Source: Amphiura filiformis (Eukaryota > Echinodermata > Ophiuroidea > Amphilepidida > Amphiuridae). Taken from it: DNA of 64,000 nucleotides. The DNA lies in NCBI RefSeq assembly GCF_039555335.1, contig NC_092637.1:41432990-41496989 (forward strand). The letters are read 5' to 3'. Shown piece by piece: positions 36,747-63,046 of this stretch. How positions within the stretch are numbered: the stretch's first letter is position 1; the number at the start of each line of letters is the position of its first letter. The translations under genes and the position numbers were made by a program. The notes under the pieces were generated by a model. The model was not told the DNA's origin and ran no database searches. It worked only from the letters and a program-made list of their open reading frames with translations.

Positions 36747-36822
36747 ATGGCTACGTCAGTGATACTTATATTGACTCTAGTCTTAGCTGGCTACGTTCAA
36801 GGACAGCTCGGCAATTACGATA
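36747..36822 (+). CDS. Exon 1: signal peptide
   Basis: ATG at 36747 opens MATSVILILTLVLAGYVQG, a textbook signal peptide with probable cleavage before QLGNYD. The exon ends at the donor A|GTAAGT, leaving phase 1. A polypyrimidine-AG (TTTGTTTATCAG) ends at 36741, five bases before the ATG, so this exon probably begins at 36742 and is preceded by an unseen 5'UTR exon and promoter upstream. The start is chosen because it is the only Met that gives a signal peptide in the frame joining exon 2. Confidence 0.8.
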
Positions 36823-39800: not shown

Positions 39801-42800
39801 TGTCTTCATCAAATAACTTCAAAACCACCTGTAACTCAATTTCTTCAAAAGTGGACTTACAGTCTTCTTGCTCTCAGGTCTTGTAAGTATTGAAAAAAAA
39901 AAGCCAAACAAAAACAAAACACTCACACAAAATGTATTTCTTATATTCCTATATACGAGTATTTGATATATTTTTCTACAGGTGGTGATGAATGTGTTGT
40001 TAACTGTGTCGCGGCAAATGCTGGTTGCTTTGGGGGCTTTGGCGTATTTAGATGTGGCTGTTCTAGCGGTTACAGTGTAGATGGATCAATTTGCACAGGT
40101 TAGTCTATTTTCCTGTGTAATCTTGGGAAACTAGCATCCTATATAATTTATGTGAATCCTATGTTTATTTGAATTGCTATGTCAGGAAGAACATTTTGAG
40201 ACCATTTTGATAGAAATCAGACCATGTTTTTTTTTTTTTTTCGCTGTGGAGGTAAAAAAAAAGTTAATCACACATAGGTCAAACTAAACTTTTCCTGAAT
40301 CCTCATTACGCGAAGAATGCATTGGTATAGTTGTTATTACAATCTGAGCATTTCCCCCATGTGAACGATGACCCTATTTTAAATGGGTTCCATATTTTTG
40401 GACCTGTTCTAATCTGAATCATAGTAACCCACAGAATCTACATGGCTAGTCTTGTGCTTTTGTCCACTCTGTCCCCTTAATTTTGTTACCCTGTCCGACT
40501 ACTTTGGGTGGTGATAACTGTAATTCAAATGGTGTTTCTATTATTTCCTTTGGGTCATTCACGCGTATATGCAATGCCGGCTATAGTGGACAAACTTCCT
40601 TTAAAGGAAAAACGTTCATGCCTGTATTAACAGGCCGTAGTGACACTCTCTTTTCAAAACGATTTGGGGCCATACTCCTTCGTGAATAATGTTGTTGTGG
40701 GGGGGGGTTAGCCAACGAGTCAGTTTTCCTTCCCAGGTACCATATTAAATACACCTGGGTGGAGAGAGACACTAGAAGTTAAGAGCCTTGCCTAAGGGCA
40801 CAACACGATAGCACCACCGCCGGGATACGAGCGCCCAACCCTCCGATTATGAGTGAGTCGTCATCTCCCGTACCGCTAGGCCACAACGCCCCCCCCCCCA
40901 TGGTATTTCCAAACTTTAGGTGGTTGTTTTATGGCGCATGCGGTGCAAACAATAATAGAGATTCCCATACGCCGTGATCGTACGCCCGTCTATTGAAAAC
41001 CACTCTCCTGTGACGGTGCCAGTTCGCTTATTTAGCCAGTATTAAATATTCTGCACATGCGAAAGTAACGTTAGGATTAGGGTTTGAATTAGGGTAGGAT
41101 AGGGTTAGTGATACATGTGTTAGGGTTTAGGGCTTAGGGTAGGGGTGGACTGGAGTCTAGGGTTAGATAATAACCGCTGACATTTGGTGTTTTTGTTTCA
41201 AAATCAAAACAAATGCAAAGTTGGATAATAATGTTTTTCATTAACCATGTCATTTGTATCTAGGAATGTGTATGACAGTTAAGGTCTTAAATGTGTACCC
41301 AACATTGGACAAAAAAGCTATAAAATATTTGATAAGCGAACATTTACCCATTGCTTTCATTTAACTTTATTTATATAAAATATTATGATATAATTTATCA
41401 TAATCGCATGATGATGATGACTATAATGATCATGATGATGATGATGATGATGATTATCATCATCATCATTATCACCATCTTCGTTGTCATTATCGATATC
41501 AACAATATTCTTTTTTGTAATGTCTTATTTCACACATTTTGTACAGACATAGATGAATGCTCATCGGATACTCATAATTGTATCGCAAATGCTAATTGCA
41601 CCAATACCGATGGTTCATTCATATGCACATGCGATGACGGTGACAGTGGAGATGGAGTAACATGCATAGGTTAGTCTATTTTGTATCATATTGCCGTTCT
41701 ATTTATTTCAAATAATTGTCCCGAATACGTGAGTTATATTACTTTTTTTTTGGAAATGGTCCATGGTCATATATACTGACAGCCCGAGGGATACACTAAC
41801 CACCGATCACAACAACAACAGATCCAGCGGTAGATCCAGTACCGCAAACGTATTTTCACTATGATAACTATTTTTCGTTTATCACCATTTTTTGTGATGG
41901 ATCAATAGCAACTGATAAATTAGCAAAGGCTATTTATTCAAGTGTTACTGAGCTTTCATGTTTCAGAGTACAAGAAACATAATAATTTTAACTTCTCTTT
42001 TGATCATATTTCAAAATGTGTTTTTCACCAAAATGTATCACTTGAGATTAGTGTGAATGTAATGCAATGCCGACTAGAGTGGAAAGATAGAGAGAGAGAG
42101 AGATGGTGTATCCTAGCTTATATTGCTATCATCATGTTCACGAATTATGACATAAAGATGATACGCTGTTAAAGGATAGGACACACCTTTCTTTACTACT
42201 TTTAAAAGTAATTAATTAATAATATTGTTTTTGCTCTACACTTGTAGGCTAAGTATTATGGTCAGTGTTACAGGTGTTAGGGTTTAGAGCAAAGGCAGGG
42301 TTGGACTGGAGTCTCCAATAACCTCTGACATTTTTCGTTTCATAATCAAAACAAATGTAAAGCTGGATAATAATGTTTTTGATTGACATGTGTATTTAGG
42401 AAAGTGTATCCAAGTTAAGATCTTAATGTACCCAACATCAACATCATCATTATCACCATATTAGTCGTTGTCATCATCGATATCCACAATATCATTATTT
42501 TATGTTAAAATGTCTTATTTCATACATTTTGTACAGAAATAAATGAATGTACATTTGGTACTCATAATTGTAACGCAAATGCTTATTGCACCAATACCGA
42601 TGGTTCATTCATGTGTACATGTAATGCCGGTTATAGTGGAGATGGAGTAGCATGCGCAGGTTAGTATATTTTGTATCATATTGCCATTCTATTTATTTCA
42701 AATAATTGTTCCGTGAGTTAAATTACCTTTTTTTGGAAATGGTCCATGGTTTATATACTGACAGCCCGAGGGATACACTAACCACCGATCACAATGTTTT

Positions 42801-45800
42801 TCAACAACAGATCCAGCGGTAGATCCAGTAACGCAAGAAGTTTGATGAATTAAATGGCTTTTAAAAATTGAGTTTATCGCCAATTTTTGTGATGGGATCA
42901 ATAGCAACTGATAAATTAGCAAAGACTATATATTCAAGCGTTACCCAGTAAACACAAAACGTTTTCGACATCATTCGCAAAAGGTTATAAAATGTTGTGA
43001 GAAAACGTTTAAATGTCGGGTTATATAAAGGGTATATTAAGGGTATAAAACGTTTTCATAACATTGAAAAACATTTTTTGATAATCTACTGCCCAGCAAA
43101 CACAAAATGTTTTACAGAAAACGTTTAAATGTCGGGTTATATAAAGGGTATAAAAACGTTTTAATAACATTCCAAAAACATTTTGAAAACCTGATACAAA
43201 ACATTCTAAACAGAATGTTATTTTTGGGTTGAAAAAATATTTTGTGAAAAATGTTTGCCCAAAATATTTGCAATAACGTTTTAAATACGTTTTTATGACC
43301 TTTATATAACCCGACATTTATTAAAACGTTTTGAAGAAAACATTTTAAGAACATTTCTGTGTTTGCTGGGGGCAAATATTTTAACATAATGTTATTTAAG
43401 TGTTGACAAAATATTTGGCAAAAAATGTTTGCAAAAATAGTTTACAATAACATTTTTGAAAACATTTTGTTTGTCGTGTGTTTTCATACAAAACGTTTAA
43501 AAACGTTTTCATGACCTTTATATAACCCGACATTTTAATGTTATTAAAACGTTTTTACCTAAACCAAAAGCCAAAATATAACTTATTTAAAACGTTTTAA
43601 AAACGTTTTTGTGTTTGCTGGGTACTGAGCTTAGAAAACCAAACTAATTTCTAATTTGTTTCATTGCAAATTATTGTCAATGCTTGAAGTTATGTGTAGA
43701 AATTTGACCTGTTCCGTCACCGTTTTCGTTATATTTTTAAAGATATAGATGAGTGTACTATCGGTGATATAAACTGTCATTTTGGCCAAGATGCATGTAA
43801 CAATAGCTATGGTTCCTATGTATGTACTTGCCCGGATGGTTGGATCGGAGATGGCTTTATATGTGATGGTATGTATAATAGTTAAAGCACACTCATAGTG
43901 TATACATGAAATCTAAGCACTTTACTCGACCCAAATATACTTGCAATACGAGGGCCATTTCTTCACGTTATTATTTGGACGAAATCCCACATTGTCTGTC
44001 ATGTGTAAAATGTTGTATGTGCAATAGCTGAATTTTGTTATTTTGTAGCTCTGCTAGGGGGCAATATTTGTTGTAGAATATATATATATATATACTTGTT
44101 TTCACTCAAGCGTTATTGAGTTTTAATTGTATCGTGTCTAAAGAAACAATCAACTCTTTTGACCATACATAAAACTCTGTGTTTTTTACCTAAATATTTT
44201 CAACTTAGATTTGGGTGAATTGTTTTTTTGATCACTTTCATTTTTGGACAAAATTAAGGCCACTTTTCCAAACAAACTCAAAGAAAATGCAAAGTGTGTT
44301 GCAACGATGATTTTTAATTAACAAATCATTATCCATACAGGTTAAGCTGTATGGTTATGGTTAAGATTTGGGTAAGGTAGGGTAGTAATCGAATTAGGGT
44401 TATGGGTATGTCAGGGTTAGGTTAGGGTAGGTTAGGGTAGGGTAGGTATGAGGGGCAGAAGCTGGATTTTCCGTAATGGATTTATCTGTGGGGGTGCTCC
44501 CAACCTACTCATCTATACCTTTCACCTTTCACACTTTCTATACTCTTTTCTTGCTATAATTTTTTTTTATTTCGCAATCCAGTTAGCAAGGATAGGTGAG
44601 TTAAACTAGTTGGCTTGGTAGGATGGTTAACATCGGGTTTTGTCTAGGACAATGGGTTTGTCTTTAGTATAGGGTATACCGCCTAATCCCAGGGGTGATT
44701 ACCGACTGTAACATCATTCAGGGGTACAGGATATAGATCCCCAGTTTGTTGGGCACCTTCTTGTGTGTCACCCCCTGTAAACCGTGTTCAGTTATACTGT
44801 TTATAGATGCAGGAAGTGTGGACGCTAACTGGTATTGTGTCTATCCCTTTCATCTTTCCCTCTTTCTCCCCATCATGGAGTAAAGTAAAGTAAGTAACGT
44901 CTTGCAATCATGGTGAGGTAACCCCATTGACCCCTAGTGACAACACGCATCCTACCAGAGTGTCAGTATAAGGCAGTATTATGGAGTTCATATCCCATAG
45001 ACATCCAAGAGCGAATGAGAAGATATACCTTGCAACGGTCAATAGGGTGGTGCTGAGCAGGTCATCAACCTTCCATCACTGGCTAACTTTTTCCACAACC
45101 AGAGGCAAGCTACACTATATTGGTAGTTATTGGCTGCTGGATATCCGGAAACAAGCTGAATGAGGGCTGATCACCCGAAAACTACAAAAAAGAAGGCAAA
45201 TGAACGGCAGTTTATGACTGACTCTATGACGGACCAGGGGGGAACTCGGCACACCAACACGAACTGTTGGCCCAGATTCTTGTCGCTTGTATGCCTTCAA
45301 ACCTCTCACAATATCTACATATAATGTACGCACTCTATTTCAACAAGGAACAGCCCATCAACTTTTTATGGGATGTACATATGTCGGCGTCGACGTCATT
45401 GGGATACAAGAACATAGGCTTATTACCCTTAATCCAACAGAAGAACTTTGGTCAGATGATAGAAACTGGGTAATGGTGTATGTAAACTCATCTACAAATG
45501 CCTACAGAGAGTAGAAGTCATCACTGAGAGAATTCTATATGCAACATTTCATGGAAGTATATGCTCCTACTAAATGTTCATCATCTGCAGCACATGGCTG
45601 TTTGATGTGCATATAATTGACTTCATTATTAACTAAATGCAACCTATAGATGGCGCTATTTATCCTAAATCATATCTCTTTATTTGCAAGGGTTAGGTGA
45701 TTAATACCGCCATTAAAACAGCTGGAATAGATGAAACAAGCAACATATTTTATCAAACAATAAAAGGAATTTTTTGTATTAAACGCTTGAAAGAGTAATT

Positions 45801-48800
45801 TCCAGTAACTAAATAGCGCCACCAATTTTGTCATTAATAGATACATTTTATATCCGAAAAAGCTTTAAAAAATACCATATAAGTGAATAATTGTGTAAAA
45901 GAGGGGAAATTAAAGTTGAAAACGACTCAAAAAGCATCTGTATACATTAGCACGATATCACTTTTAGCTGTTTAAGCCTAAAAGTTGGTTGTACATGATG
46001 TTTTGTTTGAAAAACTAATAAATGATCCCATCAAAGCAAAGGAAGGTTTCTATACCTCTCTCTTAGACCATGTGGACCAAGTAAAGAAACATAACATCCA
46101 TCTAGTTCTTGGGAACTTGGGGATAGTCATGCTACTAACCCCCTTATTGTTGGTAGGCACTGTTTCCATGATTCACTAAATGAAAACCTGAGTGCAAGAA
46201 GACTGTAAGTCCACTTTTGACTTATTATTTGATGAAGACCAAAAAATTGATTTTTTTGACATTTGGCCCCCTCCCCATAGGGGTCACGTGATGGGTCAGG
46301 AGGGGTCAAAAATGAAAAAAAAATGTCCAATGTCGTCAATGTCGTCAAATTACCCGTCTCATTTTCTCACAACGATTTCGAAAATATAGGCCTATAATTT
46401 ATCATACATTTTGAGCTCGGTTAATGAGTTAGAGGGTCACTTCCGGTTAAAGGTCAACTGAGGTCAAATTGTAAAACGAAATTCAACAAACAAGGTGTCA
46501 AATTGCTCGTCTTTGCACATAGATTACCAATATGGTTAAATATTTCCAACATCTTTATTCAGCTTTGAGTTATAAGCTTTTGTTTCAATCCGAGCGCAAG
46601 AAGACCGTAAGTCCAAAAATGATAAATCGATCAATATTACAGATATTTACTTGGTTGATATACAAAATGATTCTTCGTGCCTATACCCATGTACCTAAGA
46701 AGTATCAATATTATGGCTTTTTTTTCTAAATTATCTTATTTTAGAAAGTTTAAACGATCATATCTCAAAATGCCAAATATGGACTTACGGTCTTCTTGCG
46801 CTCAGGTCTTCAAATGACAATGGTGAACGGCTAGTGAACTTGTGTCAGGAATACAACCTTCGACTTGCACAACCAATATTCCCTCATCCACGTTGCCGCC
46901 AGTGGACTTGGATGCACCCAGGTGAAACAAAACATTAATTGATCAACAGCAAGTGGATCAATTCTCTTCGGAACTGCCGTACCTACAATTCAGTAGAGCT
47001 GGACTCTGACCATCGCATTGTCAGCATTCTTTTAGTCACTAGCTTAAGAACAAGCAATGGAAAGCCGTTCAAGTGACCCAAGTTCAATTGGAGCAAGCTG
47101 CAGGATCCTGGCACAAGAGCATGATGGATGATGATTCCATAAACATCACAGAAAGATATGAGTCCTTTGAATCAACGGTAAGAGAAGTTGCAGATGAAGT
47201 GGTTGGTAAGAAAGAGCCCTGTAGCCTTCCAAGCTGGGATAAGGCTAGGAAGATATTTACTCTAAGCAAATCTCCACCATCGAGAGAAAAATGGAGAAAT
47301 TGAATATCAGCCTCAATGATTCTTACAATGTTGATGAGGCTGCTGCACTCAATAAACAGCTGGATGAGCTGAGAGCAGCTGATAAAACTGGGAACTATAC
47401 AGCTACTAGTAAAATTATCCAAACACTCTCCAGAAATGTGAAAGTCAAAAAGAGAGATGGCACAGCTCCTTCAAGTAAGTAATAAATAAGTTCTCGAGGA
47501 GTGGAAAGGTTTCATCAGTTTATTGCTCAACAATGACAGTGGTGTGGGTCTCACGGCTGTTTGATGTGATCATTTATTAGTTTTATTAGTTTGATCTATT
47601 TATGACAAAATTGGTGGCGCTATTTAGTTACTGAAAATTACATTTTTAAGCTTTTAATACGAACAATTTCTTTTATTTTTTGATGAAATATGATTATAAA
47701 ATTTCTTTGCTGCTTGTTTCACCTATTCCATCTGTTTTAAACGCAGTATTGATAACCTACCCCTTGCAAATTAAGAAATATGATTTAGGATAAATAGCGC
47801 CATCTATAGTTTGCATTTAGTTAATAATGAACCCAATTCTATATACATCAAACAACTACATGTACCCCTAGCAGCGCAAGAAGATCGCGCCATCTGTGAT
47901 GGCCCCCTACTCGTAAAGAGACCGTTATGGCAATTGCCACCATGAAAGCCAACGAAGCAGCAGCTTTAGATTGTGCCAATACAGCCGATGCCCTTCAGGG
48001 AGGTGACGATCAAATACTTGATGTCATTCATGCTTACACTACACTATCTCCACCACGCCAATGGATCACCAATGTTATTATCCCATTGCCAAAGCTAAGA
48101 AAGGTGACCTTTCTTTGATGACTAACTATAGAGGCATATCACTCGATGTCTACAACAAGATCCCTTTAAACCGCGTCCGGTCTCATGTAGATCCCTTGCA
48201 GAGAATCAACCAGGCTGGTTTCAGTCCAGGACGCCGCTGCGCACAGCAGATCCATATACCGAGAAGAATTATGGAAGGCTTTAAGGAATACCAGCTCCCC
48301 TTGATAGTTACCTTCGTTGACTTCAAGAAGGCCTTCGATTCCATCAACAAAACTGTAATGTTCTCAATATTGCGTCACTACGGCAGTGCAGTTATGGTTG
48401 ACGGAGGCATCTCTGAACCCTTCGATGTAACAACAGGAGTCGTGCAAGACGAAGTATTGGCTCCCTTTCTCTTTATTATCCTTGTTGACTACCTTTTGGC
48501 GTCTGGACCAGAATCCGGAGTTGTGACCTGTCCTCGTCGATCAAGATGATATCCTGCCAAATTGCTAAATGACCTGGACTTTGCTGCTGATATCGCTCTC
48601 CGAGTCTTCCACCCCGCGGGCCCAGTCTCAGCTCTCCAGGACCACGAATGCCGCAGCAGACCTAAAACAGATGACCATCAACTGTCAACCCCAGCCTCCT
48701 CTCCAAGCTAGACCCCATTAAGCATGTAACCGACTTAAGATGCCTAGGCTCCATGATGGGGTCCAGTACTAGCGATCTGAAGAGACGGAAAGCTCTTGCT

Positions 48801-51800
48801 TGGACAGCCTTCTGAAATTAGAGCAATGGTGGAAAAAGACCTACTATCTAAATTTCCACCAAGGTTAAACTGTTTCACACAACCTGTGTCACAGTTTTAC
48901 TATACGGCTGTGAGTCGTTGGTTATCTCTAAGGATATGGAAAATAAAATCAACTCATTTGGCACATCCTACTACCGTATTATGCTGAACATCAAGAGAGT
49001 AGACATAGTACCAAATTCTACCATCTACAATCTGACAGAGCCAGCGCCACTTATTGAGAAAGCCAGGGCATATACTCCGCTTGCCTGACGATGAACCAGT
49101 AAAAGAGTATGCATTGTATGTCCCAACTAATGGCAAGAAGAAACCGGACGGCAACGAACCTTTTCAGATTCAGATTCAGATTCAGATTCAGATTAAATTT
49201 ATTTCAAATTCGTGGCCCGTAGGCCAAATTACATGAAATATTACATTTGCAATGTTTGCATTAAAAGACATAAAAAAAACATATAAAATATACATGAAAA
49301 CACTATAAAATTACTCACGAGAAATTAATTGCACTTGTTGAGGCAAAATCGCAGTCACACAGCGCACACACCCCTACATCTTCTCCACACACACCTTACA
49401 CACACACCCCCACCCATTACATACACTCACACCTGAACTATCAGCCCTCCATATACACACCCCCACACACACCACAGATGCACTAAAGAATGTAATTTAA
49501 TGAAACAGTAATTAATAAATAACATAACAAAATATTGCACATAAATATTTGGACCAGCCAAATTATAAGGGACAAATTCAATACATCAAGATAAAAATGC
49601 TGTCATAAAATCACAATTAAACACACCAGCTGAATATGAATATGATGAGATGCACTAATTAAGTAGATGAGTGAGATAGGGTATTGAGCTGTTCCCATAT
49701 CTTTTTGTTTTGGTTCTGGGGACATGATACTTATTGCACTGTCTAAGGGTCATATTGTGGGTCCTCATATTGTGTGGAAACCATTCTGAGTACCTATCAG
49801 ATTCAACACATTTCTGAGCAAACTGTGTACAGAGATGTAGTCTTCTATCATTCAAAGTTTGGAGTTCCAACTGGTCAAGGCAATCTGTGTAGGATGAGTA
49901 ATTAGCACCAAGGATAATGCGGCAAGCCCTCTTTTGGATGCGCTCTAATTGATGTGCCTGGTCGTTGGTAATACTACCATGCCAGACAGGGGCTGCATAT
50001 TGACATGTTGGGCGAACATAACCAATATAAACAGAGACTAGGTCACCAGTTGGAACACCAAAGCGTTTGAGACGTGAGAGCATGTACAACCTTCGACTGC
50101 TTTTTGATACCATATTGTTAACCTGAGACTGTCAGCCAAGATTGGACTGGACTGTCAGGCCCAGGAGCTTAGTCTCAGACACCACCTCAAGCTCAATTCC
50201 AGCAATGCGAAGACTAGGAGGGGTGGGAGGTTCCCTCATGAAACAAACCTGCATCACCTTGCACTTACTCGGATTGAGCTTGAGATGATTGTCTTTTGCC
50301 CAAGCATCCAAGTCCTGAACATCAGGTCCAATCTGGCTGTCTTGTTTAGCAGGACGAACCTCTCCAAGGGTGAGATCATCGACATACTTAAAGCTTTTAG
50401 TCAGAGACTCCTCAGAAGCATTGTTGAGTACACCAAGAAATGTGATGGGGCCCAGCTTAGTGCCTTGTGGGACACCACATGAGAGAGTTTCCCATTCTGA
50501 ACAGGGCAGAGTGGTACTGCACCCGTTGACGACGAGGTGTGAGGAAGTTTATAATCCATGGCAGTAACTCGCTTCTGACACCAAGCTCGTAGAGTCTCTG
50601 TATAGCTAAAGTATGGTCGATGCAATCAAATGCCTTGGAGAAGTCCGTCACCACTAGGGTTCCTACAGTTCCTCCTTTGTCTGTACCTTTGAAAAAAAAC
50701 ATCAAGAATTTCAATTAGACAATGAGAAGTAGACGACCCTTTGATACTACCATATTGGTCAATTGCACTAGAAAAATCATCAAGCACCCAATTTGCAACA
50801 AACCCCTCACATACTTTTGCCAAAAGGGAAGTTAATGAGATTGGCCTTAGTTTTGAGATTGTAGCAGGGGTTTCCTTTGGAATTGGGGCAATTGTTGCAT
50901 CTTTCCAAACTTGGGGGACCATTCCATCTTTTAAAGATGAATTGAATATATCTGTTACTGGGATGCTAAACTCACAGGCAAACTCTCTAATCAACCTCCC
51001 AGGAAGACCGTTAGGTCCTGCTGCTTTTTTAACATTCAGTTTTTTCAGAGCATTGTACATATCCCATACCTGGATCTGAGGTGGCAATCTTGCAGGTAGG
51101 AAGGCAGGCAGCTCCTGTGGGTTGATTGGAGGTCTACTTTGTGAGACTGAGGCAAAATGATCATTTATAGCCCTTGCAATAATGCTTTTTCGTCATTTTG
51201 CTGGACACCAGGGACTGATATAATTGGCCTTTTCTGGCATTTGTTGGTTATTAGTTGGATTCCCTTATGCCAGCCTGATGGATCACTTGACTTGAGGTTC
51301 TGAATGCGATCTTTGTAATAAAATTTCTTCGCTTGATCGATGGCACGACTAACCTTTTTGCGGAGAAAGCGCCAGAGAAACATTTTCTTCTCAGCAAAAG
51401 CTACCTGACGTTTCCTGATTAGGTTCTTAATCTCAGGAGTGATCCAAGGTTTATCCTCGGAATGTAGTTTGATAACCTTAGAGGGGAAGTGAAGATCAAT
51501 TGCTTCCTGGACAGTAGCATAAAATGTATTCGATTTATCAGCAGGAGATGTCGCGTTCAGAACCTCAGTCCAAGAATGTTTGGTTATCCATCTTCCAAAC
51601 TCATGCACACTTTGTTTACGTAACGGCCTAACAGTTCTTTTGTGAGATTTACCGTTCTTACTATACCCTACTGGTGACCAGTAGACAGTGTTGTGGTCAC
51701 TTTTACCGATTGGAGAGCTCACAATAGGAGTACCATAGTACGTCTGAAGGTTTGTAATGATCAAATACAAGATAGCATCGTTACGTGTTGGTTTATCAAC

Positions 51801-54800
51801 AACTTGTTTTAATGAATGGGCTATGCACAGTGGGTTAAAATTGAGTCTATTAAAATCACCTAAAATGACTATACCCAATTCATGGTGCTGGGACTTTAGA
51901 GTATCTAGAGTTGTCAAACTATGTTCAATCAGCAAGTCTTGGTACGGTGACTCGGGTGGTATATAGACAGCACAGATAACTATTGCAGACACAGCTCGTG
52001 GTAGGCGGTGGGGGCGGGCGCGAAGCCAAATGCATTCCAGTTCGTCGGGCACTTTGATGTCGGGTAAGGTTTCCACCGGAATTGGAGTAAACTGCAACAC
52101 CACATTTTTCAATTTTGGTCGTAGTAAACAGATTGAAACCATCCACTGCAAGAAAGTCATTGTCAACTCTATCTGGTTGCCAGGTTTCAGTGACAACTGC
52201 TATATCAATGGGGTTGATATCTGGTTTTTTTTGAGCAAAATCTCCAGCTCATCAAACTTATTCATTAATGAACGGGCATTTGTAAGAAACAGTCCTGGTA
52301 GGAGGAAGCTGGTTGTGTTTGATTCAGTTTTTGTGGATGGCACATTTGATGCTGATGGAACTTGCGCAAGCACTGCTGGTGGGCGTGTGGGGCGGGGTGA
52401 AACTTCTGATGGTCTATTTCCAACCACAACTTGTATAGGGCGTTGGATTTTTCTACCTGCTCGTTTACCCCTTTTATATGCAGTTTTAAGAATGCCAAGT
52501 CCATTTAGCTTGTGTTTGATAGTGGGTGAAAGTTTCACATTACTTGATGATGCAATTGATTTCAGTGTTTCAGAGTTATATACATATTGCACTGGTGTGT
52601 ACAGCTGCGTCATTGCGAATATTTAATATTGTAGGCTTGAACAATGGATTCGCACAGGGCTGACATTAAACGCCTCAAGACCCGTAGGTTATGCGTGTTG
52701 GTACGGAGACAGCAAGAAAATATCAACCTTAAGTAAATCTATATCAACACATAGGTAAGCTTACGACAGTGGTGGTGACACTCGATGCAGCAATAAGTCT
52801 TTATATTTTAAGAGTTCTGAAATTCTTTCTTCAGCGGAGATACAAGTTCACAAATAATATTCATAACACACACACTCACGATAAACAGCACTGCAAAAAA
52901 GGTGAAAATCCGGCACAAAATTTCAGACGATACGGAGTGGGTGTGACTGCTACAGAGCGCCACCATTAAAAAAAGCCTTGTTCTGGAAATACATCCAGTG
53001 TCTTTTTGGGGATATGGACAGCATGCTGAGTCAAGGTCAACTGTCAGCAATGGCACTAGATTGATGTAGCTGGAGGAAACTTGTAGTCGCCTGCTCCGCA
53101 ACCGAAAGATGATGAGGTATTAGGGTCAGTGTTACAGGTGTTAGGGTTTGGGGTTTAGGGCTAGGGCAGGGGTGGACTGAAGTCTGTAATAACCTCTGAC
53201 ATTTTTTCAAAATCAAAACAAATGCAAAGCATGTCATGTGTATTTACACACTGACTCTCTACATAGGGACGTGTATGCCATAAGGTCTTAAATGTGTACC
53301 CAACGGTCAAAATTTAATTCCGATAAAGCAACATAAATAATAGATGAGAAGAAAACTATAAAACATTTGATAAGCGAACATTTACCATTGATTCCATTCC
53401 ATAATTCCAGGGTTAAGACCGACCTTAAAGAAGACATAATACCCGGGCAGAAGCCCTAGACCGTTAAATATCGACATCTTGTGACCAGAACAGTATGAAC
53501 GTGCGTAACGCACGGACCACGCAAGACGTCGCATTCTCTCCAATACCATAGTTTTAACGCAGATTAAGCCATATTGTAAAATTTAGAAATATAATTGCAT
53601 TACTGTCATTATATCCTCTTTTCATTATTATCCACACTAATCAGGCAAAACAATGAAAATCGCTATTTAATTCCAACGTCTATGTCGCCACTCCGTCGAA
53701 TGTGCTGAAGTCTGTCCTTTTGATGTGTTATGTATGACCATCATCCTGTAACGTGCCGTACGTCATGTGCGTACATGTTATGTACATCGTGCAGCCGTTC
53801 GACTAATATTTAGATCGTGTGAATAAAACGAAGGACACGTCATTTTATAAAGAAAAAAACACAGATTTTGTCACAAATTCAGCACCTAAAGCTTTGGAAT
53901 TTGGAGGGCATGTTAGTTTGTCAATTCACATTACTTTCGTGTAAAAATATAAACTTTGAAAAGCTTCGGGGCGTCCACCTCATCAAATGTTACAATATGG
54001 TTTTAACCTCATAATATGTAAACACACATTACTTGCATTGTTTCCAAAACCTTATCCTAACAATATTATATCGGGTAAAATCTTATTTCATTCATACATT
54101 TTGTACAGATATTGATGAGTGTGCTGACCCTACTGCTCATGATTGTGACGCAAATGCTACTTGCTACAATAACGGGGGCAGCTACCAATGTGTATGCAAT
54201 GGTGGTTACAGTGGTGGATATGGACAAAATAGCTGTACAGGTTAGTCTTAGTTAGGTAAAAAACCTCAATTTGGTGACCACTCTCTGGCTAGTAAGGTTT
54301 CACGATTGATTCGACTTCTATGGACCATTTAGAAAAAAAAAGCCCCATGTCCCTCGCGAAAATCCCGGCATTTTTCGCTAGAGGCCAAAATCCAAAATGG
54401 CCGCCGCCACCATTTTGAAAATATTTAAGTTTTGAACCAGAGCACCTATAATCATGCACAAAGAATTTTTTTCTGATATGTCAAGTACAAGGATTCCGAT
54501 TCTGACATTAGTTTGACATTACCGCATCATTTTCACCCAGAAATCCAAGATGGTGGCCGGCACCATCTTGAACAATTTAGTTTTGAACCAGAGGACCTAA
54601 AATCGTGTACAAAGACACTTTTTTGGATAAGCCGACCACAAGGATTTCAAATTTAACATTACTTTGACATTACGACCTCATTTTTACCCAGCAATCCAAG
54701 ATGGTGGCCGCCGGCGCCATCTTGAAAAAATAGGTTTTGAACCAGAGTACCTAAAATCGTGTACAAAGACACTTTTCCGGTAAGTCGACCCCAAGAAAAC

Positions 54801-57800
54801 CGAATCTGACATTAATTTGACGTTATAACATAATTTTTGCCCAGAAATATACTTATACTTGCATGTATACGCAGCGATTACCATTATAGAATACTATAAA
54901 AGTTTGACCTGGCAGCTAATACATTCTGATGTGTAGTCGATCAGCAGGGGCATTTAATTTATTTAAATGAAGCGCCTAAAGTCAGGTGGGTGATAAAAAA
55001 AATTATATCGACAACTAAAGCCTCCTTTATAGACTTCATACCCGCACAAGCGCGCATTTGGGATACGTTAGAACATTGGTACCACCTCACAGATGACTGC
55101 CCTTACACATGACTGTATTATGGTCACTTATTTATACTCGCCTGTTGGGTTAAGCGTTAATATGATACCGGATCAGCGACCAATTTAATGGCCGAACCCT
55201 TTGTTCAAAAAAATTGTACCACTTTTATGAATAGCCTGTCGCAATCTCTAATCGGCATCAAAGGAACAAAGCATTACGTACTCTATTTCTTCTCCTTTCT
55301 ATCTATCCTCCTTGATGAGAATCTATTCACATCTTCTCTGGTGTGATGCACCCAAGGTGAATCAAAGGGTGCCACACCACTCTTCGCCATACATACATTC
55401 TCCCAGCCACATTTCCGTAACATAATATGAAATTTGAACAAAAAAGAAAATTTAGTTCGGCAGAGGCGCCGGCGGGGCTCGAATCCACGCTGCACATGTA
55501 GACCTATACGTATCGACATAATTATCACCAGCGCCTTAGACCGCTCGGCCACAAGGACTTGTTGGTGTCATCGTAAAAATTTAAACATATAATCGCAACT
55601 TTATTACTTCAACCTACCACCTGACAAGCAAATACAGAAAACGTACCATATTTTGGAATTTTATTTGTTTAAAACATTAATGTGTATTAATAGCGCTCAA
55701 TTGTTGATAACTGCGTGTCTACATACAGAAATCCGACAATAAATGGGCAGCTATACACGCACAAAACATTATCGATTTGAACTCGCTGGGCCGCTCCGGC
55801 TACACGTGTTATACTCCTATATTATACCGTGGTTCATAATGGAACATGCCATTTTTCGTGTATACACGGTCTGGATTTTTGCAGTTTATAGGATAGTTCA
55901 ACGTAGGTCCCCAAAAGTTTCTTCCAGATATTGGAGATTAGATTCCCATAAAGACGAAACCGTAATCTTTAGTCGGGACCTACGTAAAATTTACATAATT
56001 TTTTTACCATCAATTGAGTGTTAGTTTTGACTAAATACAGAAAATATTTTGGCGTATATAAAATTGAAATAAAATTCTCTGCCTCCTAAACCGCATACAT
56101 TTTAGCACGATTGGGTATCACGAATCGTTACATATGATGTGCAGTTAATATTCATATATTCTTTTATACATAGGATGCTTCAGTTTTAACACAAAAATAT
56201 TTCATTGCAAACGCTCCCACTCGGCGATTTCAAAAAGGTAACCACGCTTCCCTAGAATGTGCAATAAATTAGCATTAAATGTTTTCTTATTTTAGCAGCA
56301 TTCTAGAAACTCTGGCGTACGGCGAGTACTGCTGTAAATGGGTGCTTCCTATATGTTTAGATATATTTGTCTCAGCATAGCGCCACCATGAGCGTATTGC
56401 AATTGCGTTTAGATGTAGTCTCGGGCCAGACTGTATGCGGCTATCACGAACATACTAGGAACGACGAGCGTTAGGACCGACACAAACTTGCTGTGTATGA
56501 GACTAGTTTGGATGTGGGCGACACTGTGACGTTCCACCGCACAATGTCGTAATAATAGTAATAATACGTAACCCGTATGGCATTAGCAGTGAACGCCTCT
56601 TCGCAATCTCTCGAGTGTTACTGAGCTTTCATGTATTATGTTTCAGAGTACAAGAAACATTTTTACTTCTCTTTTGATCAAATTTGTTTTTCACCTAAAA
56701 ATTGTATAACCTTAGCATATCGCAGTCTAAACCCAGATAAGGCATCTAAACTCCAGATAATGCGCCGTAACCCCAGATAAGAGACGTAGACCCCCGATAA
56801 AGCAGTACAAACGCCAAATAAGGCGCCTTAACCCTAAAAAGGAAAATAAACCCCAGATAAGGCATCTAAACCCCACACAAGGTGCCTTAACTCTAGATAA
56901 GAGTCGTTAACCCCAGATAAGGGTCTTAAACCTCAGATAAGGCATCTAAACCCAAGATAAGGCGCCTCAACCCCAGAAAAGAGACGTAAACTCAGATATG
57001 GCAGTCTAAACCCCAGATAAAGCGCCGTCTGGGGTTTACTTCTCTTAGGTTTATGTTCCTTATTTAGGGTTAAGGCGCCTTATTTGGGGTTGGGACTGCT
57101 TTATCTGAGGTGTACGTCTCTTATCTGGGGTTACGGCGCCTTATCTGGGGTTAAGGCGCCTTATCTTGGGTTTAGATGCCTTATCTGAGGTTTACGACCC
57201 GTATCGGGGGTTTACGACCCTTATCTAGAGTTAAGGCATGTCGTTGTCATCATCGATATCAACAATATCATTATTTTATGTTAAATGTCTTGTGTCATAC
57301 CCTTTTTACAGACATAGATGAATGCTCACTGGGACCTGCTCATTGCGACGCAAATGCTAATTGCACCAATATCGTTGGTTCATTCATATGTACATGTAAT
57401 GACGGTTACATTGGAGATGGAGTAACATGCACAGGTTAGTATATTTTGTACTATATTGCCATTCTATTTATTTCAAATAATTGTCCCGAATACGTGAGTC
57501 AAATTACTTTTTTTTGGAAATGGTCCATGGTCATATATACTGAAAACCCGAGGGATACACTAACCACCGATCACAATGTTTTTTTCAACAACATATCCAA
57601 CAGTTACGGAAGATCCGGTAACGCAAAAGACTGCAGTAACAGCAAATGTAAGTCCTTTATTTATTTGGAGTAAATATTTTAAAAATGTAGGACTAATTTC
57701 ATACTTATTTAATGAATATTCACAGACCAAGAAACTAATTGCTTAAAGAAGGATGGACCGATTTCATTACAACACACCTCCCGCGTCCTAAGAGGCGTCA

Positions 57801-60784
57801 GAATTTCAGTTGTTCTTAATATGCATGATTTAGGAGCCGCCGATGTTTTGCGAGCCGCCAAATGCACATCTTTGACTCTCTGAATAATAAGCCACATTTG
57901 GTTTACAAAATCGAAAAAAAAGAAGAAAAAAAAAAGAAGATCTTGCACCCTAATATTTTATAGAGTCAATGAAAAAACAAAAAACGAAGATATTTACACT
58001 GATACCAATGTTTCCTTTTTAAGGAGCTTTCTCGGCATTAGACTTTGATTTGTATTGCCCAAAATAAGCGAACGGGTAAAACAATGTGTTATTGCGAGTT
58101 TATTTTTTTTTCTGCTGATTCGCTTTGATTCTGAATGTAGTATTATAATAATTATGACTTCGATGGAAAATTCTGATGGTGCAGCCGAATTTTAAATAGC
58201 GCACACTAAACAAATGTTACGAAAATTACTTTTTATTTCCGTTTGTCTCGTGAAATATGAATTGACATTAAACAAAATACTTATTAATATGGGCCACTAC
58301 TCTGAGAAAAGGACCCCATGCCCAGTCAAATTATAGAGTTTCTCTCCAAAAGGCATTAAGTCCAATAGTTGCCTTGTGTCACATTTTCTGGTATATTTTT
58401 ACATTTTTTAAAGTATAAATTACAATAAACGATCGGAATGGATATATTTGTAACTCTAGATTATTCTCTAACTGTTTTCAATATAAGTTTTTCCCCTTAA
58501 AAATGGTTGCCATTGGAATTCATTGGACTTAATGCCTTTTGGAACCAAACACAAATATTTTCTTTAACATTTATTGTTTTCTTTTTCGCACGTGTGGTTA
58601 TACAGATTTGCAATTATTTTTATTAAATATAACAAAAAACATTTTATTACTATTCTACTGCTCCAATGTTATTAGATTGGCAATGTTACTGTCACTTACT
58701 TTTAGGAATATCTTCAAATAAAATATTCCACAAAGCAGCCTTTGGATTTAATGCCTTTTGGAAACAAACTCTTATAAATACACAGTAATTTACGTTGCAG
58801 CATGCTGCAGTTACTGTCCGTTTTCCTATACACAATACACAGTGCTCTCACCATTGACGCGTGACCTCTACAAACAGTGTATGTTATAGGTATATGGGCA
58901 TTGCCTAGTTAACATCACTGTGTGAAAAATAACCGGCCAATATTTTAACTATTCTTCAAACTTCTAGCAAATATATTTCTCTAACATGACCTAAAATTAC
59001 AGCTAGGTTAGATGTTCAGAAGGGGTCGCACTTTCGTAGAATATGAGTGAGGGCAAAGCATAGCTAGCTCATAGCTAGCCAACTCCCCGTGTTAATTGAA
59101 TGGAGATTTGACCGAAAATATTGAGCTATATTGGTAACGGACCGCTCCGTTCTGAAGGTTGCCACAAAAAACGGTACAAGCTACATTTAAACTATTCTAA
59201 ATAGGTTCTCGAAAATATAGTTTTGTAACATGTCCTAAATTTTTAGCTAATTTAGATGTTTGGAGAGGGTCGCACTTCTGTGTTTTAGGAAGGATATGTA
59301 AACGACAGATAACACCAAAAATATGAAGAAATTATTTCCAAACCGTGTTAAGTCAACAATCATTATGTTGCTCATTTTGAAGAATGCTGGTTAACAAAAA
59401 GCAGGTCATTGTCTCATTTCGTGAACAAAGGTACACATACCATTGTTTCCTTTCGTTTCCTTTATAATCGGTTACCCAACTGAAGCTATAGTACCAGCTT
59501 TATTGCGATGTCGCACATGTAAAACAGACACTTGTGCACAACCAGAGAAGATCTGATTTAATCAGTTGAGCTGCTTCAATGAGTGTTATCTTGGTTTAAT
59601 AGCTTTTAATGGGGTTTAAGTCCTGCAAAGGTCGAGATGAATTCTACTGTAGACATGACTGCATCATGGTTGGGAATTATTGTTACCATGTTATAACGCA
59701 TTGCGAAATAATACATTATAATAGAGTGAACAGATCCGGTACCAGCTGTAAATGTGCGCGTGCTTTACATTGGATTATGATTCTCGCATTTATATTCATG
59801 AGAACGACCATATCGCATGGCGTTACGTGCCTTTGTGTTTACGCTGTAGCAGATGCAGAGTTAGAGTATCATTACATACTTCATGGAATTCGTCCTAACC
59901 CAGTGATCCGATAACCTAATATCAGGATATAATTATGATTTTTGTTCTTTCTCTCTAGCCTTTAAGTTGTTACAGTTGCAGCGCGTCAAACAAGTGCAAC
60001 CCATGTACAGAAGCGCAAGATGCTAAAACACATGAAGTTGAAGAGTGCAGTGAAGATCAGGTCAGATGTGGGGTAAGTTGCTAAAAGGGCCCAGTGGCGT
60101 AGCTATAGTATAAGTGGTATGGATGGGGTGACCAAGGAGGAGCTTCTACCTGTATGACATCATGTCCTCTCCTTGCTTCCCTATAATCGTTTTAGACTTT
60201 AAACCCCCTTTTTTGACCATTTTCGTCCAATGTCAAAAGTGAACTTATTCATTACACGGGTTCGCATTTATAACACTTTTAGGACTTCAGACTTGGACAT
60301 AATATATACGGTAATATATAGCTGAACAAAAAAGGTAACGATATGGATTGGTGATAGCATTGAGTCAATCTGGCTGACATTGGTGATATGTCCTCTGGGC
60401 CCACAGGGCAGTGTTTTCATGAGCTATTGGACCGAGGGACCAATTTATTTCGTGCAAATCGGATAATTGTATAGGCCTTACCGCTTACAATTTAATTTTT
60501 CTTTATCATCTTTCTTAACTACGCAGGCCGTTGTTTACGAGCAACATGGCAAGTTCCACAACATGTCACGTGGCTGCTTTCCGCGCCAAGAGTGTCAAAG
60601 TGATGATATGCCGTACCTGTGCCAGACAATAGCTGAAGGCAATATCACCAAGTGCGTTAGTTGTTGCCAGGATTCGGGTTGTAACCACAAGGAAAGAGAA
60701 CAGCTGAAAAATTCGGGCGTGCACATGATGCGAGGTTTTACTGTCCTTATTGCGTGCCTTGTCATGTCGAAGGTGTCATATTAA
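36747..60784 (+). CDS. EGF-repeat plus Ly6/uPAR (three-finger) putative GPI-anchored surface protein, 10 coding exons
   Basis: Joining 36747-36822, 39982-40098, 41547-41669, 42537-42659, 43743-43868, 54109-54240, 57312-57434, 57604-57647, 59959-60072 and 60527-60784 gives 1236 nt, an uninterrupted 411-residue frame. Every junction has AG/GT signals and matching phase. Order: signal peptide (about 1-19), EGF1 (26-64, no calcium signature), EGF2-6 (65-273, each beginning D/E-I-D/N-E-C and carrying the CxNxxGS(F/Y)xCxC core of calcium-binding, hydroxylatable EGFs), a Thr/Val-rich linker (274-288), an LU three-finger domain (from Cys292, ending CCQDSGCN) and a hydrophobic tail (about 394-406). 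By family knowledge this is a secreted or membrane-anchored extracellular protein for adhesion or ligand binding; its actual partner is unknown. The five residues after the hydrophobic stretch make a short TM tail an alternative to a GPI signal. Additional exons, including an upstream 5'UTR exon, may be missed. Confidence 0.8.
36968..38669. mobile_element. Inverted-repeat element in intron 1 (AGGGCGAATTTCTCGA ends)
   Basis: Left AGGGCGAATTTCTCGA and right inverse TCGAGAAATTCGCCCT. The arms are filled with AAGCCT/AGGCTT words (36990-37130, 38420-38650). The centre includes the GAAGGCCCAATTGA array 37785-38320. Confidence 0.7.
37785..38320. repeat. Tandem array of the GAAGGCCCAATTGA unit
   Basis: Three diverged units, each with AACTTTTGCAAAATGAAGGC, TACTATTATGGTGTACAATTT and GTTGGGTGTCCAAAGCAGAA; period about 190-220 bp. 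Related to 15140-15480. Confidence 0.75.
38680..39380. other. Intron 1 remainder, nothing recognised
   Basis: A short snap-back of AGTCCGAA/TTCGGACCAGCGCAGT words at 38690-38785; otherwise no structure seen. Confidence 0.4.
39388..39882. mobile_element. MITE of the GACCTGAGCGCAAGAAG family, copy B (intron 1)
   Basis: Left TTGAAGACCTGAGCGCAAGA and right inverse CTTGCTCTCAGGTCTT. About 490 bp, non-coding; ends 99 bases before exon 2. Confidence 0.85.
39982..40098 (+). CDS. Exon 2: EGF-like domain 1 (non-calcium type)
   Basis: Acceptor TTTTTCTACAG, donor CACAG|GTTAGT, 117 nt, phase 1 to 1. Encodes one six-cysteine EGF module (spacing C-3-C-6-C-8-C-1-C-10-C counted between cysteines). It lacks the D-x-D-E-C start and the Asn/Asp hydroxylation core found in the other five modules, so it should not bind calcium in the usual way and is the most diverged EGF of the gene. 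Confidence 0.8.
40487..40597 (+). pseudogene. Decayed EGF exon in intron 2
   Basis: From about 40513 the frame reads DNCNSNGVS...GSFTRICNAGYSG, matching position by position the HNCNANAYC...GSFMCTCNAGYSGDG of exon 4, and the bases align closely as well. Two framework cysteines are lost (to Ser and Arg), the DIDEC start is gone and no donor site follows the turn, so it cannot be a working module. I read it as a relic of a former EGF exon between modules 1 and 2. Confidence 0.6.
40720..40897 (-). mobile_element. tRNA-derived SINE in intron 2
   Basis: On the - strand: TGGCCTAGCGGTACGGGA (A box TRGCNNAGYGG exact), GGGCGCTCGTATCCCGG (B box-like), then the body GTGCCCTTAGGCAAGGCTCT and CCACCCAGGTGTATTTAATA, ending GGTACCTGGGAAGG. 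The body is the widespread metazoan SINE type with a LINE-like tail. Lies between the decayed EGF exon and exon 3. Confidence 0.8.
41405..41475. repeat. ATG/CAT trinucleotide microsatellite
   Basis: (GAT)n running into its inverse (ATC)n, forming a hairpin about 75 bases before exon 3. Shorter traces precede exons 4 and 7 at the equivalent position. Confidence 0.85.
41547..41669 (+). CDS. Exon 3: calcium-binding-type EGF domain 2
   Basis: Acceptor TTTTGTACAG, donor GCATAG|GTTAGT, 123 nt, phase 1-1. Begins DIDEC and contains the core CTNTDGSFICTC. The usual aromatic residue of the GYSGDG turn after the core is replaced (GDSGDG). It is nearly identical in plan and in flanking intron to exons 4 and 7, showing recent duplication. 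Confidence 0.85.
41822..41852 (+). pseudogene. Linker-exon copy after EGF exon 3 (decayed or alternative)
   Basis: Following CAACAACAACAG, the phase-1 frame reads DPAVDPVPQ, parallel to the exon 8 linker. No GT donor appears where exon 8 has one; the frame stays open to a TAA near 41982. It is either a dead copy of the linker exon or could act as an alternative terminal exon giving a soluble truncated protein. Confidence 0.5.
42537..42659 (+). CDS. Exon 4: calcium-binding-type EGF domain 3
   Basis: Acceptor TTTTGTACAG, donor GCGCAG|GTTAGT, 123 nt, phase 1-1. Begins EINEC, a weaker calcium signature than DIDEC, with core CTNTDGSFMCTC and the normal GYSGDG turn. Closest paralogue is exon 3; the two share intron sequence on both sides. 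Confidence 0.85.
42811..42843 (+). pseudogene. Linker-exon copy after EGF exon 4 (decayed)
   Basis: After TTTTTCAACAACAG the phase-1 frame reads DPAVDPVTQEV and then stops at TGA. The same intron sequence that precedes exon 8 precedes this copy. Using it would truncate the protein after EGF3. Confidence 0.5.
42944..43621. mobile_element. MITE with CCCAGCAAACAC-type inverted ends, TA target
   Basis: Ends CCCAGTAAACACAAAACG and its inverse CGTTTTTGTGTTTGCTGGG, flanked by TA at 42942-42943 and 43622-43623. Interior consists of inverted copies of GTCGGGTTATATAAAGG and AAACGTTTT words. The paralogous block at 41935-41955 has the uninterrupted site TTCAAGTGTTACTGAGC, proving insertion at a TA. No coding capacity. 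Confidence 0.85.
43743..43868 (+). CDS. Exon 5: calcium-binding-type EGF domain 4
   Basis: Acceptor TATTTTTAAAG, donor GTGATG|GTATGT, 126 nt, phase 1-1. Begins DIDEC with core CNNSYGSYVCTC. More diverged from exons 3, 4 and 7 than those are from each other. It is followed by the 10.2-kb transposon-filled intron 5. Confidence 0.82.
44380..44452. repeat. Degenerate TTAGGG-like stretch in intron 5
   Basis: Irregular GGGTTA/GGGTAG words; similar stretches at 41060-41170, 42270-42300 and 53115-53170. They form part of the duplicated intron block. Confidence 0.7.
45597..45980. mobile_element. MITE with GGCTGTTTGATGTG end, copy 1, inside the RTE
   Basis: Reverse complement of 47555-47856 over most of its length (AACTATAGATGGCGCTATTT, GAAACAAGCA, AAATAGCGCCACCAATTTTG). 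The right end is diverged, so its boundary is approximate. Confidence 0.65.
46182..46811. mobile_element. MITE of the GACCTGAGCGCAAGAAG family, copy C, inside the RTE endonuclease
   Basis: Left GAAAACCTGAGTGCAAGAAG and right inverse CTTCTTGCGCTCAGGTCTTC; an extra internal GAGCGCAAGAAGACCGTAAG lies at 46592. AAAT(GA) occurs at both borders, as a target duplication, and removing the insert restores the RTE frame ..HDSLN|DNGERLVNLCQ. Confidence 0.8.
47555..47856. mobile_element. MITE with GGCTGTTTGATGTG / ACATCAAACAAC ends, copy 2, inside the RTE
   Basis: Both termini present: GGCTGTTTGATGTGATCA and ACATCAAACAAC. About 300 bp; inverted relative to copy 1. Confidence 0.75.
48061..48700 (+). pseudogene. 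RTE-like reverse transcriptase core, dead
   Basis: Motifs NYRGISL, NQAGFSPGRRCAQQIHI, VTFVDFKKAFDSIN and VLAPFLFIILVDYLL are clear. The usual QGD before VLAPF reads QDE, and the catalytic FADD box reads LDFAADIAL (about 48573-48600) after a stop and shift, so a catalytic aspartate is lost as well. Confidence 0.85.
49655..51160 (-). pseudogene. Reverse transcriptase half of the CR1/jockey-type LINE
   Basis: Motifs from right to left: KKAAGPNGLPGRLIREFA, WKDATIAPIPK, LRPISLTSLLAKVCEGFV, VVTDFSKAFDCIDHTL, catalytic YVDD in KSFKYVDDLTL (about 50360-50395, third frame), then PTCQYAAPVWHGSITNDQ..LERIQKRACRIILG and the C-terminus to 49655. Broken into 153-, 85- and 152-codon pieces by frameshifts near 50700 and 50470 and a stop near 50115, though the active site is preserved. 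Confidence 0.85.
51165..52613 (-). pseudogene. Endonuclease (EEP) half of the CR1/jockey-type LINE
   Basis: From 52613: a basic N-terminus, then FLTNARSLMNKFDELEILL (the start motif of APE-type endonucleases), VVTETWQPDRV after a one-base shift near 52205, VILGDFN and SDHNTV, the metal-binding and catalytic motifs. The 343-codon ORF (52196-51165) carries the second half of the endonuclease and the linker to the reverse transcriptase. Catalytic residues are intact; one or more frameshifts break the gene. Confidence 0.8.
53240..54100. other. Intron 5 remainder before exon 6
   Basis: Part (53115-53400) matches the duplicated intron block upstream of exons 3 and 4; 53400-54050 shows nothing recognisable. 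Confidence 0.45.
54109..54240 (+). CDS. Exon 6: calcium-binding-type EGF domain 5
   Basis: Acceptor TTTTGTACAG, donor TGTACAG|GTTAGT, 132 nt, phase 1-1. Begins DIDEC with core CYNNGGSYQCVC. The sequence just upstream of the acceptor resembles that before exons 3 and 4, so it belongs to the same duplicated set although separated by the LINE nest. Confidence 0.83.
54380..54860. repeat. Tandem repeat, about 150-bp unit, three copies (intron 6)
   Basis: CCAAGATGGTGGCCG, TTTTGAACCAGAG and TCGTGTACAAAGACAC recur at about 54390-54440, 54545-54600 and 54695-54750. Contains the inverted pair CAAGATGGTG / CACCATCTTG. Confidence 0.8.
55283..55565 (-). mobile_element. tRNA-Leu-derived SINE, copy 2 (intron 6)
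   Basis: On the - strand: GTGGCCGAGCGGTCTAAGGC (A box), GGATTCGAGCCCC (B box), then CTCTGCCGAACTAAATTTTC, CGAAGAGTGGTGTGGCACCC and a tail rich in AAGGAG words. An 89-codon ORF across it is a SINE by-product. Confidence 0.7.
55610..56010. repeat. Dispersed repeat, second copy of the 23625-24260 family
   Basis: Shares several 20-base words in the same order with 23625-24260, with about 200 bp less between them. It directly follows the SINE 5' flank. Confidence 0.65.
56030..56610. other. Intron 6, nothing recognised
   Basis: Non-coding; no repeat partner noticed in the window. Confidence 0.4.
56725..57235. repeat. Minisatellite of AACCCCAGATAAGGCGCCTT units arranged as a palindrome
   Basis: About 13 units of 21-23 bp in one orientation (56725-57024) then about 9 in the other (57028-57235). 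Unit variants follow the same order in both arms (..GAGACGTA.., ..AAAGCAGT.., ..AAATAAGGCGCC.., ..AAGGAA..), so it is a true inverted duplication. Ends 77 bases before exon 7. Confidence 0.85.
57312..57434 (+). CDS. Exon 7: calcium-binding-type EGF domain 6
   Basis: Acceptor CCTTTTTACAG, donor TGCACAG|GTTAGT, 123 nt, phase 1-1. Begins DIDEC, core CTNIVGSFICTC, turn GYIGDG. Its downstream intron matches the introns after exons 3 and 4 for roughly 150 bases and leads to the functional linker exon. Confidence 0.85.
57604..57647 (+). CDS. Exon 8: 44-nt linker exon, splice phase adaptor 1 to 0
   Basis: Acceptor CATATCCAACAG, donor AAAT|GTAAGT. Read in phase 1 it encodes VTEDPVTQKTAVTAN, a short Thr/Val-rich spacer. 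Its 44 nt convert the phase-1 chain of EGF exons to the phase-0 start of the LU exon: without it exon 7 could not join exon 9 in frame, which is the main argument that it is real. In the parallel copies after exons 3 and 4 an upstream AG (CAACAACAG) is kept; here that AG has become AT and the next AG, nine bases downstream, is used. The pyrimidine tract is weak. Confidence 0.65.
57660..58320. other. Intron 8, first part, nothing recognised
   Basis: AT-rich; a purine tract at 57914-57940 yields a low-complexity ORF. Confidence 0.4.
58346..58545. mobile_element. Small inverted-repeat element (CCAAAAGGCATTAAGTCCAA)
   Basis: CCAAAAGGCATTAAGTCCAAT at 58346 and its exact inverse ending at 58542; a third partial copy (TTAATGCCTTTTGGAAAC) at 58748. 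Possibly a MITE or a duplicated half. Confidence 0.6.
58970..59285. repeat. Diverged direct duplication in intron 8
   Basis: AACATGACCTAAAATTACAGCTAGGTTAGATG...GGGTCGCACTT at 58982 recurs at about 59227 with changes. The 101-codon ORF at 59609-59914 nearby has no motif or splice support and was not called. Confidence 0.6.
59959..60072 (+). CDS. Exon 9: first half of Ly6/uPAR (LU) domain
   Basis: Acceptor TTCTTTCTCTCTAG (strong), donor TGTGGG|GTAAGT, 114 nt, phase 0-0. Starts PLSCYSCSASNKCNPC, the characteristic LU opening (L-x-C-Y-x-C), with two further cysteines before the donor. Splitting an LU domain over two exons is usual for this family. Confidence 0.8.
60527..60784 (+). CDS. Exon 10: second half of LU domain, C-terminal anchor and stop
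   Basis: Acceptor CTTAACTACGCAG; open in phase 0 to TAA at 60782-60784. Carries GC...EC...LC...KC..CC....CN, the LU closing signature, two N-glycosylation sequons (NMS, NIT), then a hydrophilic stem with an N-S-G triplet (possible omega site near residue 388-390) and the hydrophobic stretch FTVLIACLVM, followed by SKVSY. This reads as a GPI-attachment signal, though a hydrophobic extreme terminus would be more usual. The two halves together give 13 cysteines outside the tail, an odd number. Confidence 0.78.
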   Translation, partial: AVVYEQHGKFHNMSRGCFPRQECQSDDMPYLCQTIAEGNITKCVSCCQDSGCNHKEREQLKNSGVHMMRGFTVLIACLVMSKVSY

Positions 60785-60807: not shown

Positions 60808-60813
60808 ATTAAA
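60808..60813 (+). promoter_or_regulatory. Candidate polyadenylation signal of the EGF-LU gene
   Basis: ATTAAA, the commonest variant hexamer, lies 24 bases after the stop codon, with a G/T-rich stretch following. It would give a very short 3'UTR; an AATAAA at about 61487 beyond the CATG-rich MITE is the alternative. Confidence 0.3.

Positions 60814-62932: not shown

Positions 62933-63046
<114 letters not shown>

Follow-up and report, generated by a model that had tools for sequence, protein, structure and literature searches.

A predicted brittle-star gene that combines six EGF modules with a C-terminal LU-like domain

Organization of the predicted gene

A window of 64,000 nucleotides from the brittle star Amphiura filiformis (contig NC_092637.1, positions 41,432,990 to 41,496,989, assembly GCF_039555335.1) contains, on its forward strand, a candidate gene for a protein that combines six EGF modules with a C-terminal Ly6/uPAR (LU)-like domain. 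Ten exons between window positions 36747 and 60784 join without a frameshift into 1236 bases, or 411 codons and a stop, and all nine introns start with GT and end with AG. The splice sites were picked by eye with the open frame as a guide. The single 411-residue frame with consistent phases described in the first-pass annotation was therefore recovered. The predicted protein consists, in order, of a signal peptide, six EGF modules, a short linker, a cysteine-rich LU-like domain and a hydrophobic tail. Introns 1 to 7 are in phase 1 and introns 8 and 9 are in phase 0, so that the change of phase from the EGF part to the LU part is made by exon 8, an adapter of only 44 bases.

A search with residues 285-411 identified two proteins at an expect value (E) up to 10 among four candidates, both from A. 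filiformis. One of them, P0001, is a predicted, uncharacterized protein of 252 amino acids on a 68.9-Mb contig. It has the same order of signal peptide, EGF modules, linker, LU domain and tail as the window protein, but only two EGF modules rather than six, the first of them diverged. Over the LU domain plus tail, 111 of 123 residues are identical, and all 13 LU cysteines are common to the two proteins. Since in P0001 the N- and C-terminal parts and the linker belong to a single protein, it supports the earlier proposal of one gene with the EGF-then-LU order, and at least two EGF-LU genes are predicted in A. filiformis. The heterozygosity of this species has been given as 3.22% (PMC11310086). 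The divergence of P0001 lies above this value and the number of EGF modules is not the same. P0001 is therefore probably a paralogue of the window gene, with an allele on a diverged haplotype as the less likely reading.

The other protein, P0002, is an automatic model of 533 amino acids on a 146-kb contig and has neither the signal peptide nor the tail. Of its residues, 81 of 81 match the LU domain of the window and 23 of 24 match exon 6. P0002 exits exon 10 at a GTTAGT internal to that exon in the window and continues into unrelated sequence, which may be retroelement-like and in which no Pfam family is matched with confidence (best E 0.021). P0002 is a chimeric automatic model.

Exon 1 (36747..36822) carries the start codon, the signal peptide, with a top 9-residue hydropathy of 3.54, and a phase-1 donor; 17 of its 25 residues are identical to P0001. 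The linker encoded by exon 8 (57604..57647) is rich in Thr and Val, and 9 of 14 aligned residues are identical to the P0001 linker. The LU-like domain begins in exon 9 (59959..60072) and is completed in exon 10 (60527..60784), which also encodes the hydrophobic C-terminal tail and the stop. An ATTAAA, a possible polyadenylation signal, was seen by eye at 60808..60813 on the same strand.

EGF modules and their duplication

The six EGF modules noticed at first were confirmed by a Pfam scan of the full protein, which returned six EGF_CA stretches (E 7e-40, 135.4 bits against a cut-off of 27) and six EGF_3 stretches (E 5.3e-42). Each of the six pieces has six cysteines. A strict calcium-binding motif is found in four of them, module 2 (exon 3, 41547..41669), module 4 (exon 5, 43743..43868), module 5 (exon 6, 54109..54240) and module 6 (exon 7, 57312..57434). 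Module 3 (exon 4, 42537..42659), which is nearest to the second EGF of P0001 (31/41 residues identical), starts with EINEC and is one residue off the pattern, with E instead of D or N. Module 1 (exon 2, 39982..40098) has no calcium-binding motif and is diverged from the first EGF of P0001 (17/39 identical).

Exons 3, 4 and 7 are alike together with their flanks, with identities of 83.9% over 516, 84.0% over 388 and 85.6% over 388 aligned bases. The duplicated unit also takes in the downstream intron and reaches into the linker exon. Relics of the linker exon, with edges set by eye, lie on the forward strand 3' of exon 3 in intron 3 (41822..41849) and 3' of exon 4 in intron 4 (42811..42836); both retain the acceptor AG, while by eye the donor is poor in the former and absent in the latter. 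Additionally, a decayed EGF exon is present in intron 2 (40500..40590, forward strand), with 72.5% identity to exon 4 over 91 bases and with two of the four cysteines of the aligned piece gone. We infer from these sequences a P0001-like ancestor with fewer EGF modules, which would have gained modules as EGF exons and their linkers were duplicated jointly.

The three EGF exons differ from one another by 15-18%, whereas the difference in the intron that follows is 4.5-8.2% over 134-147 aligned bases (Fisher p 0.005, 0.013 and 0.026, uncorrected). These more similar intron pieces occupy 41670-41811, 42660-42806 and 57435-57588. In the upstream intron, 49-50 bases differ by 10-31%. The ratio of nonsynonymous to synonymous substitution rates (dN/dS) was 0.75, 1.03 and 0.86, each based on about 25 synonymous sites. 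Positive selection on the EGF exons is not claimed, since dN/dS is only 0.75-1.03, the difference at synonymous sites also exceeds that of the intron, and a conserved or gene-converted intron piece explains the low intron difference equally well.

Matches to RVT_1 (reverse transcriptase) were found at 33735-34370 on the reverse strand and at 48022-48549 on the forward strand, and a sub-threshold endonuclease match, also a retroelement piece, at 51165-52199 on the reverse strand; the latter two sit within the 10-kb intron 5. Upstream of exon 7, a short-repeat cluster at 56710-57235 contains 'ccccagataagg' followed by its reverse complement 'ccttatctgggg', and a long GA dinucleotide repeat lies at about 62935-63040, both seen by eye.

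The LU-like domain and the hydrophobic tail

The C-terminal domain has 13 cysteines and ends in CCQDSGCN, with an Asn after the last cysteine. As given in a review of the family (PMC6600238), the LU consensus comprises ten cysteines with an Asn after the tenth, and this arrangement is found in the domain. A ten-cysteine spacing pattern with the spacings of CD59 fits and leaves three cysteines extra. Two exons encode the domain, with their boundary after residue 38 of its 94 and a phase 0 intron upstream; LU genes are described as having two LU exons that meet at the tip of loop 2, mostly with phase-1 introns on either side (PMC6600238).

When the C-terminal 123 residues were scanned in isolation, the Pfam family Quiver/sleepless (QVR, PF17064) matched residues 2-91 over the whole profile (E 0.00028, 22.3 bits), and two further three-finger families matched more weakly (E 0.82 and 1.6). 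No QVR match was obtained with ten shuffles of the first 94 residues of the domain (five full, five with the cysteines fixed), one of which matched an unrelated family at E 0.16. The LU domain of P0001 reached 19.8 bits with QVR when scanned alone and 16.8 bits within the full protein.

The hydrophobic tail, GFTVLIACLVM (residues 396-406, 11 residues, mean hydropathy 2.58), directly follows the LU-like domain, and the highest 19-residue mean in the tail is 1.48. The tail is compatible with a glycosylphosphatidylinositol (GPI) signal and is short for a transmembrane helix. The membrane anchor predicted initially is thus retained as a hydrophobic stretch near the C-terminus. Because the tail directly follows the LU-like domain, that domain would be the membrane-proximal part whatever the anchor type, with the EGF modules pointing outward. 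The idea of an EGF stalk presenting a three-finger head is consequently not borne out; the predicted geometry is the reverse, with LU as the base and the EGF modules distal.

Comparison with known proteins

A full-length profile search, in which 7975 candidates sharing most words were scored, gave at least 1383 proteins at E up to 0.001, and the best 120 were examined. An LU profile built from two sequences matched, at E up to 10, only P0001 and P0002 among these 120. The suggestion that the protein is lineage-specific is therefore reasonable so far, within the best 120 of at least 1383 matches, and no named family with this mix of domains was met in these comparisons. Besides P0001 and P0002, 21 of the 120 were animal-named; 20 of these, all EGF-rich, were scanned, and no LU family was found in them at E up to 1. 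A more diverged LU domain in other proteins may have escaped the search; even for P0001, the precomputed Pfam list contains none. An EGF-LU combination was not described in the titles or abstract beginnings listed by literature searches, where mostly strict phrases, capped lists and partial journal coverage make the absence weak evidence.

The EGF-rich animal matches pair their EGF modules with other domains, among them ZP, TLDc, fibrinogen, C-type lectin and F5/8C, unlike the window protein with its LU-like domain. Two further A. filiformis predictions, P0063 and P0029, have similar EGF modules together with F5/8 type C domains; P0029 also has an SRCR domain, and the longest contig of P0063 is as long as that of P0001. 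EGF_CA and cEGF modules are common to the window protein and to tandem calcium-binding EGF proteins of the fibrillin, uromodulin and NELL type. P0001 matches 24 sequences of the PDB, all in its EGF part, among them NELL2, NELL1, uromodulin, fibrillin, Notch and the adhesion G protein-coupled receptor (GPCR) E5.

Echinoderm LU proteins are represented by the Lystars of the starfish Asterias rubens, most of which are small, start with a signal peptide and carry a GPI site (PMC11595613). The 48 LU proteins of that species are classed as one-LU, two-LU, GPCR-like or activin-receptor-like, and the term EGF is absent from the main text of the survey (PMC11595613). The listed classes thus differ from the window protein. 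Quiver/sleepless, the namesake of the best profile match, acts on the Shaker channel and nicotinic acetylcholine receptors (nAChRs). In Drosophila it is described as a GPI-anchored single-LU protein (PMC6600238).

Alternative explanations

Several observations weigh against a single gene for an EGF-LU surface protein and are considered here with the explanations that they would favor. The possibility was considered that two genes were joined only on paper, one for a secreted protein with EGF modules that ends near exon 7 and one, further downstream, for a short LU protein with a GPI anchor. A typical LU gene begins with a signal exon of its own, and two LU exons come after it (PMC6600238); in the window read-through past exon 7 hits an immediate stop. 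Moreover, P0002 models the locus without the EGF frame; from exon 6, which it reads in another frame, it passes directly to exon 9 without exons 7 and 8, and it could reflect a real junction that breaks the EGF-LU frame. However, a similar signal peptide, linker and LU domain occur together in the single protein P0001, itself a prediction, and exon 8 fits the phases on both sides. Furthermore, a simple-rule scan of intron 8 revealed no first exon that resembles one for a signal peptide and has a usable phase-0 or phase-1 donor, a weak test in which a miss is possible. The scan recovers the real exon 1, and over both strands of the window it yields about 0.16 candidates in phase 0 and about 0.09 in phase 1 per intron-8-sized stretch. 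Two separate genes are considered quite improbable. It is unlikely, too, that the locus is a P0001-like gene copy that is in decay or seldom used, with the frame still open, exons 7 and 8 often skipped and the EGF modules drifting. None of the ten exons has lost its open frame or its GT/AG borders, the six cysteines are kept in all six EGF modules, and the LU domain plus tail is 90% identical to P0001 with 13 of 13 LU cysteines kept. The skipped exons of P0002, the decayed EGF and linker exons, and the retroelement pieces in intron 5 would fit such decay, as would the dN/dS values, although few synonymous sites lie behind these.

The identity of the C-terminal domain was also questioned, as it could be an unrelated small disulfide-rich domain. 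Its QVR score remains under the Pfam cut-off of 27.3 bits, no LU family appears at E up to 10 in the scan of the full 411 residues, and full-length P0001 reaches QVR at E 0.014 only. In addition, the domain has 13 cysteines rather than ten and no sequence match in the PDB, the predicted structure models are of low confidence (mean pLDDT, the predicted local distance difference test, of 43 and 44), and none of 101 Foldseek matches was at E up to 0.001 (best E 0.77). Nevertheless, three-finger folds head these weak structural matches, the isolated domain matches QVR over the whole profile in both proteins and in none of the shuffles, and the terminal Asn is that demanded by the consensus. The domain is likewise divided between two exons, the second of which carries the anchor tail, as in LU genes (PMC6600238). 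An unrelated domain is accordingly regarded as a poor candidate. Because the QVR match is below the cut-off and the full protein shows no LU family, the Ly6/uPAR domain of the first-pass annotation is retained as LU-like, on its cysteine pattern and the match of the isolated domain, rather than as a curated family member. The GPI signal, for its part, was assessed from hydropathy alone.

Discussion

The explanation that we favor, with moderate confidence, is one brittle-star gene encoding an EGF-LU protein of the cell surface that is secreted, is probably then GPI-anchored and may act as an adhesion or recognition co-receptor. That the EGF-LU surface protein is real is considered highly probable, while a role in adhesion or recognition, argued by analogy, is tentative. 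The predicted protein would be secreted and then held at the cell surface by a probable GPI anchor. The LU base at the membrane may contact neighbouring receptors sideways, by analogy with starfish Lystar5. This protein bound to the membranes of coelomocytes, and the sole membrane protein recovered in its pull-down was integrin alpha-8-like (PMC11595613); it is also reported to stimulate human cell migration (PMC12843386). A calcium-stiffened EGF rod would reach outward and bind a matrix or cell-surface partner, so that the protein could serve as an adhesion or recognition co-receptor. Since the number of LU cysteines is odd, 13 in both copies, one cysteine may be free for a disulfide-linked dimer. 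The number of EGF modules would change when an EGF exon and the linker exon downstream of it are duplicated as a unit, with decay of the inner linkers afterwards.

A more far-reaching and rather unlikely extension is that the brittle-star LU domain, shuffled with EGF modules, founded a small receptor family with a constant LU base and a fast-diverging EGF rod of variable length, which would serve diversifying recognition of an immune or self-recognition kind. The protein is an unusual, new combination of ordinary modules with a clear route of origin, and its function is proposed by inference. In the review cited above, LU is considered at most a 'proto-module' (PMC6600238). The EGF-LU protein would add another clear exception, in which the adapter exon that links phase-1 EGF exons to a phase-0 LU set can still be seen. 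If real, it would be a surface protein for echinoderm biologists to examine in coelomocytes and regenerating arms.
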